Origin: Candidatus Omnitrophota bacterium
GTDB lineage: Bacteria > Omnitrophota > Gorgyraeia > Tantalellales > Tantalellaceae
Direction of reading: 5' to 3'
Length of the DNA stretch: 45,833 bases
NCBI GenBank assembly: GCA_018813285.1
Contig: JAHJBY010000006.1
Coordinates: 1-45,833 of the forward strand
The position numbers and the translations under genes are program-made. The notes beneath the pieces are model-generated. The model ran no database searches, was not told the DNA's origin, and worked only from the letters and a program-made list of their open reading frames with translations. Shown here in pieces: positions 1-26,260 of this stretch (its first letter is position 1; each line of letters starts with the position of its first letter).

Positions 1-202
1 CCCCCGCCGTAAACGGCGGGGTTTAGCCTGTCCCGCCTGTCCCGCCTGTCCCGCCTGTCCCGCCTGTCCCGCCTGTCCCGAGCGAAGTCGAGGGGAGCGA
101 AGTCGAGGGGAGCGAAGTCGAGGGGAGCGAAGTCGAGGGGAGCGAAGTCGAGGGGAGCGAAGTCGAGGGGAGCGATAGTGAAGGGCGCCGCCGAATGTAT
201 TA
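1..202 (-). mobile_element. Composite non-autonomous repeat element, reverse orientation, truncated by the window edge
   Basis: Hairpin CCCCGCCGTAAACGGCGGGG at 2-21, six 9-bp units GCCTGTCCC (26-79), six 15-bp units GAGCGAAGTCGAGGG (80-169), then GCGATAGTGAAGGGCGCCGCCGAATGTATTAA. Its reverse complement matches the 26061 copy, and its ends match the 2723 copy. Confidence 0.7.
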
Positions 203-2641: not shown

Positions 2642-2722
2642 TTAAATGAGCCGGATCCAGGCAGTTAACATTGCGTAGCGGGAAGTTAAGGTGTGTTAAC
2701 TGTTAAGGTCTGGCTCATTTAA
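2642..2722. repeat. Long interrupted inverted repeat downstream of fabF
   Basis: Outer arms TTAAATGAGCCGGA/TCTGGCTCATTTAA (one G-U), inner arms CAGTTAACA (2662-2670)/TGTTAACTG (2694-2702). Confidence 0.75.
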
Positions 2723-2831
2723 TACATTCGGCGGCGGTAAACCCCGCCGTTTACGGCGGGGTTACATGTGAGTCGCCTCAGTATGAATACTTACATGGAA
2801 GCCCCGGGCTTCAGCCCGGGGAGTTGAAAGG
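2723..2831 (+). mobile_element. Composite non-autonomous repeat element, copy lacking the tandem arrays
   Basis: TACATTCGGCGGCG left end; hairpin AACCCCGCCG-TTTA-CGGCGGGGTT (2740-2763); hairpin CCCCGGGC-TTCA-GCCCGGGG (2802-2821); GAGTTGAAAGG right end. Near-identical to the 26061-26226 copy. Confidence 0.75.
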
Positions 2832-2842
2832 TTTCATAATTT

Positions 2843-10160: not shown

Positions 10161-10245
10161 CAATCCCACACCTGTACCTGATGGCAATCCCACACCTGTA
10201 CCTGATCGCAATCCTACACCTGTACCTGATCGCAATCCCACACCG
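10161..10245 (+). repeat. 24-bp tandem repeat, about 3.5 copies
   Basis: CAATCCCACACCTGTACCTGATSG at 10161, 10185 and 10209, with a partial at 10233. Confidence 0.9.
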
Positions 10246-17464: not shown

Positions 17465-17560
17465 CCCTCGGCTTCGCTCCCCTCGGCTTCGCTCCCCTCG
17501 GCTTCGCTCCCCTCGGCTTCGCTCGGGACAGGCGGGACAGGCGGGACAGGCGGGACAAGG
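17465..17560 (+). repeat. Paired tandem arrays: 15-bp x4 then 9-bp x4
   Basis: CCCTCGGCTTCGCTC period 15 (17465-17524); GGGACAGGC period 9 (17525-17560). Confidence 0.95.
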
Positions 17561-26041: not shown

Positions 26042-26060
26042 CCAAAAGTCGGATCGTTGA

Positions 26061-26226
26061 TACATCAGGCGGCGCCCTTAGCTATCGCGCCCCTCGCTCC
26101 GCTCGGGACTTCGCGGGACAGGCAGGACAGGCTGAACCCCGCCGTTTACGGCGGAGATGTATATGAGCCGCCTCAGTATGAATCCATACTTGGAAACCCT
26201 GGGCTTCAGCCCGGGGAGTTGAAAGG
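26061..26226 (+). mobile_element. Composite non-autonomous repeat element, full copy with short arrays
   Basis: TACATCAGGCGGCGCCCTTAGCTATCGC; CCCTCGCTCCGCTC; GGGACAGGC AGGACAGGC; hairpin CCGCCG-TTTA-CGGCGG (26139-26154); hairpin CCCTGGGC-TTCA-GCCCGGGG (26197-26216); GAGTTGAAAGG. Confidence 0.75.
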
Positions 26227-26260
26227 ATACATAGTACATGGAAGAAAAGACGGAGAGATA

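Follow-up and report, generated by a model that had tools for sequence, protein, structure and literature searches.

A probable non-autonomous, PATE-like derivative of the IS200/IS605 type in Omnitrophota, with a candidate guide complementary to both ends

The palindrome-associated transposable elements (PATEs) of Haloquadratum walsbyi, according to the partial description compared here, lack a transposase and terminal inverted repeats and are present in many copies (PMC3119063). IS608 and ISDra2 insert 3' of a short fixed target that is kept on the left (TTAC and TTGAT) and carry subterminal hairpins; a guide lying 5' of the hairpin reads their cleavage sites by base pairing, and changes in it retarget insertion (PMC5934647, PMC6006769).

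The window analysed here is contig C136 of an Omnitrophota MAG, taken as a whole stretch of 45,833 nucleotides, and comprises three copies of a small element (Table 1). Each copy presents the same layout, formed by a left hairpin, a central guide of 7-10 nt and a right hairpin, and the parts described in the original prediction were identified at all three places. The array-free form has an almost constant length of about 115 bp, and the size range of the element, 80-200 bp, is too short for transposase coding. Because a covariance model built from the small elements alone matches tnpA-bearing IS200/IS605 elements at their ends, the element is best read, with a probability of about 0.85, as a PATE-like, non-autonomous derivative of that type, folding as left hairpin, guide and right hairpin and moved by TnpA in trans. 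No description of a mobile-element family in Omnitrophota was found in a literature search, and this element adds one to the phylum.

Table 1. Features of the element copies and related arrays in the window
Feature	Position	Strand	Remarks
Copy A, target TTGAT	26057-26061	+	Left cleavage site C_L; host sequence kept on the left
Copy A	26062-26232	+	With arrays; trpB-trpA intergenic (flanking genes by Pfam)
Copy A, left-end basal stem strand	26068-26074	+	GGCGGCG; partner strand 26167-26172
Copy A, nested array	26075-26132	+	15-bp and 9-bp type units; missing from short copies
Copy A, left-end apical hairpin	26137-26156	+	Loop TTTA
Copy A, central guide	26176-26185	+	GTATGAATCC; first part complements left end/target, last 8 nt complement right end
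Copy A, right-end hairpin	26197-26216	+	CCCTGGGC-TTCA-GCCCGGGG
Copy A, right cleavage site C_R	26225-26232	+	GGATACAT; family form GGATTCAT, 1 mismatch
Copy B, target TTAAT	2719-2723	+	
Copy B	2724-2837	+	Complete array-free unit; R2 match E 3.6e-20
Copy B, left-end hairpin	2742-2761	+	
Copy B, guide	2781-2790	+	
Copy B, right-end hairpin	2802-2821	+	
Copy C	198-1	-	Left part only, contig start inside copy; target TTAAT at 203-199
Copy C, arrays	26-175	-	6.1 x 9 bp and 6.4 x 15 bp
Solo array	17465-17557	+	Both unit types as in elements, without element ends

The element is repeated far beyond chance. The BLASTN search proposed in the original prediction returned 29 matches in the own genome (G000; 1.76 Mb in 146 contigs), the next copy at E 6e-48. 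About 24 full or partial copies lie in this genome, and a related genus gave 11 matches. The fold z-score of the element is -3.6. A first covariance model, built from 15 array-free copies, identified the element in 79 of 384 Omnitrophota genomes, and about 100 copies were read out from class members after that search. Model R2, a covariance model from small elements alone, extended the count to 128 of the 384 genomes, all of them from one class except G395 and G406 (both weak). In a pattern scan of named genomes the sole other carrier was Candidatus Omnitrophota nW3bin14 (G002), and the same kind of scan identified no element in viral contigs or in plasmids. Variants of the layout include two tandem copies in G340, the second abutting the first (L155:2583-2811), and a shorter form of about 80 bp in genus g37 (L304-L323), where a single short hairpin that varies in sequence, e.g. 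CCCCGATAAATCGGGG, forms the left end.

The boundaries are sharp and recur across copies. In the 24 copies with both ends defined (G000 and G002 together) the sequence left of TACAT is TTNA, with A at -1 in 23, T at -3 in 21 and T at -4 in 20, the consensus of the left junction being TTNA followed by T with constant ends. The right boundary of the family is GGRTTCAT, and the first two bases to the right of the element are [TA][AG] in 24/24. No outermost inverted repeats are present at the termini in G000, and some class members carry a subterminal ATTCGAC...GTCGAAT pair. Testing the boundaries by the reading frames of the joined flanks did not discriminate.

A precise empty site was identified at one locus, murF, from which all the empty-site evidence comes. 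This gene contains an in-frame copy in G111 (Mur ligase domains by Pfam), and the orthologous murF is uninterrupted in 10 other species of the genus; in G126, G091, G217, G188, G200 and G238 the sequences flanking the copy adjoin, overlapping by the 2 bp AT. At the empty site TTTAT is followed directly by the right flank, so the element inserts 3' of TTTAT and duplicates no target bases. The G111 insertion (L199:1325-2806, element at 2001-2109) adds a net 102 nt by abutting alignments; the frame stays open, and the likely essential enzyme would therefore bear an element-encoded peptide. The limits of copy A, target and element, were set by the empty-site rule. The coordinates first proposed for the three copies were revised. 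The copy at 26061 is real but does not end at 26226, since the boundary GG[AGT]TTCAT runs 6 bases further; the copy at 2723 does share the right half with it but, instead of ending at 2831, is with its target a complete array-free unit of 115 bp; and the reverse copy placed at 1-202 was confirmed, the element itself being confined to 198-1 and truncated by the contig start.

The arrays were originally proposed as cargo, and they are carried along with the element, but they are not intrinsic to it: they form a separate repeat family that is also found solo. The two array types meet at 21 junctions in G000 (<=2 mismatches), 6 of them inside elements and most others solo, and units of CCCTCGRCTTCGCTC and GGGACAGGC form solo arrays in the window and on other contigs of this genome. 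Since the array-bearing elements share a common insertion point and a leading CCTTCRCTATCGC-like stretch, the simplest reading is one nesting event: an unrelated repeat probably entered the left-end stem of a single lineage once and was then copied along, with the number of units shifting. In other genomes, palindromic REP-like repeats were observed in hairpin loops or between the left hairpin and the guide (L157:2297-2459, L158:1905-2084, L165:2465-2605, L317 and L318). Two contigs of the MAG, the window itself (1-198) and C41 (G000:C41:1-228), begin inside array-bearing copies; assembly therefore breaks at the element, and a copy with TnpA may be hidden in this way. A 24-bp tandem repeat at 10161-10244 of the window (CAATCCCACACCTGTACCTGATCG, 3.5 copies) has no relation to the element.

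In both sequence and structure the ends of the element match those of IS200/IS605 elements that carry TnpA and occur in the same class. A search for PF01797 (Y1) was made in the 384 genomes, and R2 was run on 32 loci with mostly IS200-type TnpA and, for control, on 42 RAYT loci. In the IS200-type set 11 of the 12 distinct matches at E<=2 sit at the expected IS ends and on the tnpA strand; single E-values are modest, and it is the positions of the matches that constitute the evidence. Both ends were matched at the TnpA loci L238 of G285 (E 4.6e-4 and 0.05) and L235 of G206 (E 0.011 and 0.025), the right end at L350 and L249, and the left end at L237, L241 and L227; two IS605 elements, L236 and L240, were matched after tnpB. 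Among those found, the TnpAs of L235 and L350 are nearest to that of L238 (61% and 54% identity), which presents the motifs DHVH and YIEEQ, near those of IS200-type TnpA. The elements of G285 and G206 resemble the small-element model in the left and right hairpins, at both ends and on the tnpA strand; they differ in carrying tnpA, in guide layout and outer ends and in belonging to other genera. No TnpA-bearing element with the exact central-guide layout was found among the loci searched. Five contig ends of G027 (L035, L038, L041, L044 and L047) present a right end like that of L238, the pattern that a multi-copy IS would leave where assembly breaks it.

The longer Y1-bearing parent expected in the own genome was not identified there. 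Its two Y1 genes, with the motifs NHIH/NHVH and YIE[ML]NP, are of RAYT type, these being motifs of RAYT classes (PMC6006769), and their ends are unmatched. As no IS200-type TnpA was found in the own MAG, we infer that mobilisation occurs in trans. Two other candidate parents were discarded: the right-end-only matches in G111 and relatives belong to an even shorter form of about 80 bp, and the left-end-only matches in G002 (L057 and L059) are loci without transposase. Y1 is present in 69 of 79 element-bearing genomes versus 297 of 384 overall, a difference too weak to use; the other 10 of the 79 gave no Y1 match, though MAGs lose multi-copy IS.

The fold obtained with RNAalifold comprises the left hairpin with its basal stem, the right hairpin and a central ATGAAYCC paired with the right end GGRTTCAT, the guide/right-end pairs changing from C-G to U-A to A-U. 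Covariation was examined in 30 diverse elements. The left-end apical hairpin has 90.0% of its cells paired and 7/7 pairs changed on both sides, and the right-end hairpin 91.3% and 7/8; the C:G to T:G change originally noticed in the right hairpin is real and belongs to this wider covariation. The helix of guide and right end, taken with both hairpins, has 89.5% of cells paired versus 73.4% when shuffled (covariation score 0.437 versus 0.166), and that of guide and left end with both hairpins 89.2% versus 73.8% (0.431 versus 0.155); shuffling does not take kinship away, so these counts are not probabilities, but a slid-register control, which retains kinship, lost both pairings when the partners were slid by 1-3 columns.

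The guide complements both ends, TTNATAC on the left and GGRTTNAT on the right, and target, guide and right end covary across lineages with TTTAT, TTGAT, TTGAC and TTAAC. Whole-word switches were identified in the order left-target/guide/right end: TTGATAC/GTATCAACCC/GGGTTGAT, TTGACTC/GAGTCAACCC/GGGTTGAC, TTGACAC/GTGTCAACCC/GGGTTGAC, TTAACAC/GTGTTAATCC/GGATTAAC and TTTATAC/GTATAAACCC/GGGTTTAT. In another subgroup (L222 and L225) the left ATCCCGC pairs with a central GCGGGAT. Exceptions are the third target base, where the left pairing breaks in 14 of the 30 elements, and the guides that resemble TATTTCGCTCC or TATTCCGCCC in some subgroups, which fit the right end only in part. No complementary guide was identified 5' of the left hairpin in the small elements.

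These pairings suggest a mechanism in which the transposing single strand would fold into left hairpin, central guide and right hairpin, and a Y1 (HUH) transposase TnpA, supplied in trans, would bind the hairpins by analogy with IS608 (PMC5934647). The guide would determine both cuts by pairing with the left site (target TTNAT plus the AC of the element) and the right one (GGRTTNAT), and the excised circle, presumably single-stranded, would enter 3' of a new TTNAT and leave no duplication. Simultaneous pairing with both ends is impossible for the shared bases, and the cuts would therefore use the guide in turn or in two molecules. That one central DNA guide serves the left/target and right ends in turn, the lineages having been naturally re-addressed among the four targets, has in our judgement about even odds; if so, altering the guide once would redirect both excision and landing. 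The guide-and-hairpin code of IS200/IS605 was reportedly worked out on two laboratory elements. A natural, class-wide set in which target, guide and right end change together gives independent evolutionary support for DNA-guided target choice, and the compact design, with one guide for both ends in about 110 nt, would give a Y1 transposase a minimal substrate that can be retargeted.

Several single-strand systems have folded ends and insert asymmetrically, and the real fold of the element would also fit an integron attC-like or a Helitron/IS91-like origin. The attC core GTTRRRY is absent by inspection and the attC reading was dropped; insertion 3' of TTNAT and the likeness of the hairpins to tnpA loci favour IS200/IS605 over attC, Helitron and IS91 alike, leaving this origin the least probable of those weighed. 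Strong secondary structure could also mean that the repeat is a conserved structured RNA, or a regulatory element of intergenic regions, which recombination has copied without any transposition, and weak Rfam matches were obtained to HgcC (E 0.051) and Acido-Lenti-1 (E 0.51). Both miss the gathering scores (25.8 of 50 bits and 22.7 of 37 bits), and the precise murF empty site, the constant ends at unrelated loci and outermost bases that covary with the target make a structured RNA very improbable.

Spread by RAYT (TnpA_REP) transposases, as for REP/REPIN-like repeats, has in its favour that RAYTs are common in the class and that the only Y1 genes of the own genome are of this type. In the 42 RAYT loci R2 gave 2 matches, none at gene ends, and the element ends resemble those of IS200/IS605 rather than RAYT-linked ones. 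The element also has two different hairpins in fixed order, and the GTAG/GTGG foot described 5' of the hairpin in REPs (PMC6006769) is absent by inspection, so that this origin is judged unlikely. The preferred reading thus remains the non-autonomous, PATE-like derivative of IS200/IS605 type put forward in the original prediction, to which the empty site, the recurring boundaries and the ends shared with TnpA-bearing elements lend support.

Among known systems, REP/REPIN sequences with their RAYTs resemble the element in being short, palindromic, repeated and non-coding and in their link to Y1 enzymes; the Omnitrophota element differs in having no RAYT linkage, two distinct hairpins and no GTAG foot. 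PATEs, as far as their partial description extends (PMC3119063), are alike in lacking a transposase, in their many copies, in near-terminal palindromes related to IS605-type transposons, in the lack of target duplication, in a host genome with few or no intact TnpA and in the nesting of small mobile repeats in palindromes. They belong to another phylum and have other sequences, whereas the Omnitrophota element is one compact family across a whole bacterial class; compared with that same partial description, it adds a central guide that complements both ends, as well as the covariation of guide and target. IS608 and ISDra2 share the short target retained on the left, the subterminal hairpins and the guide-read cleavage sites, but they carry tnpA and have a separate tetranucleotide guide 5' of each of the two hairpins. 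In the Omnitrophota element one guide of 7-10 nt between the hairpins matches both ends, and this shared central guide, as read from the sequence, appears to be the new point, unlike the two guides of IS608.
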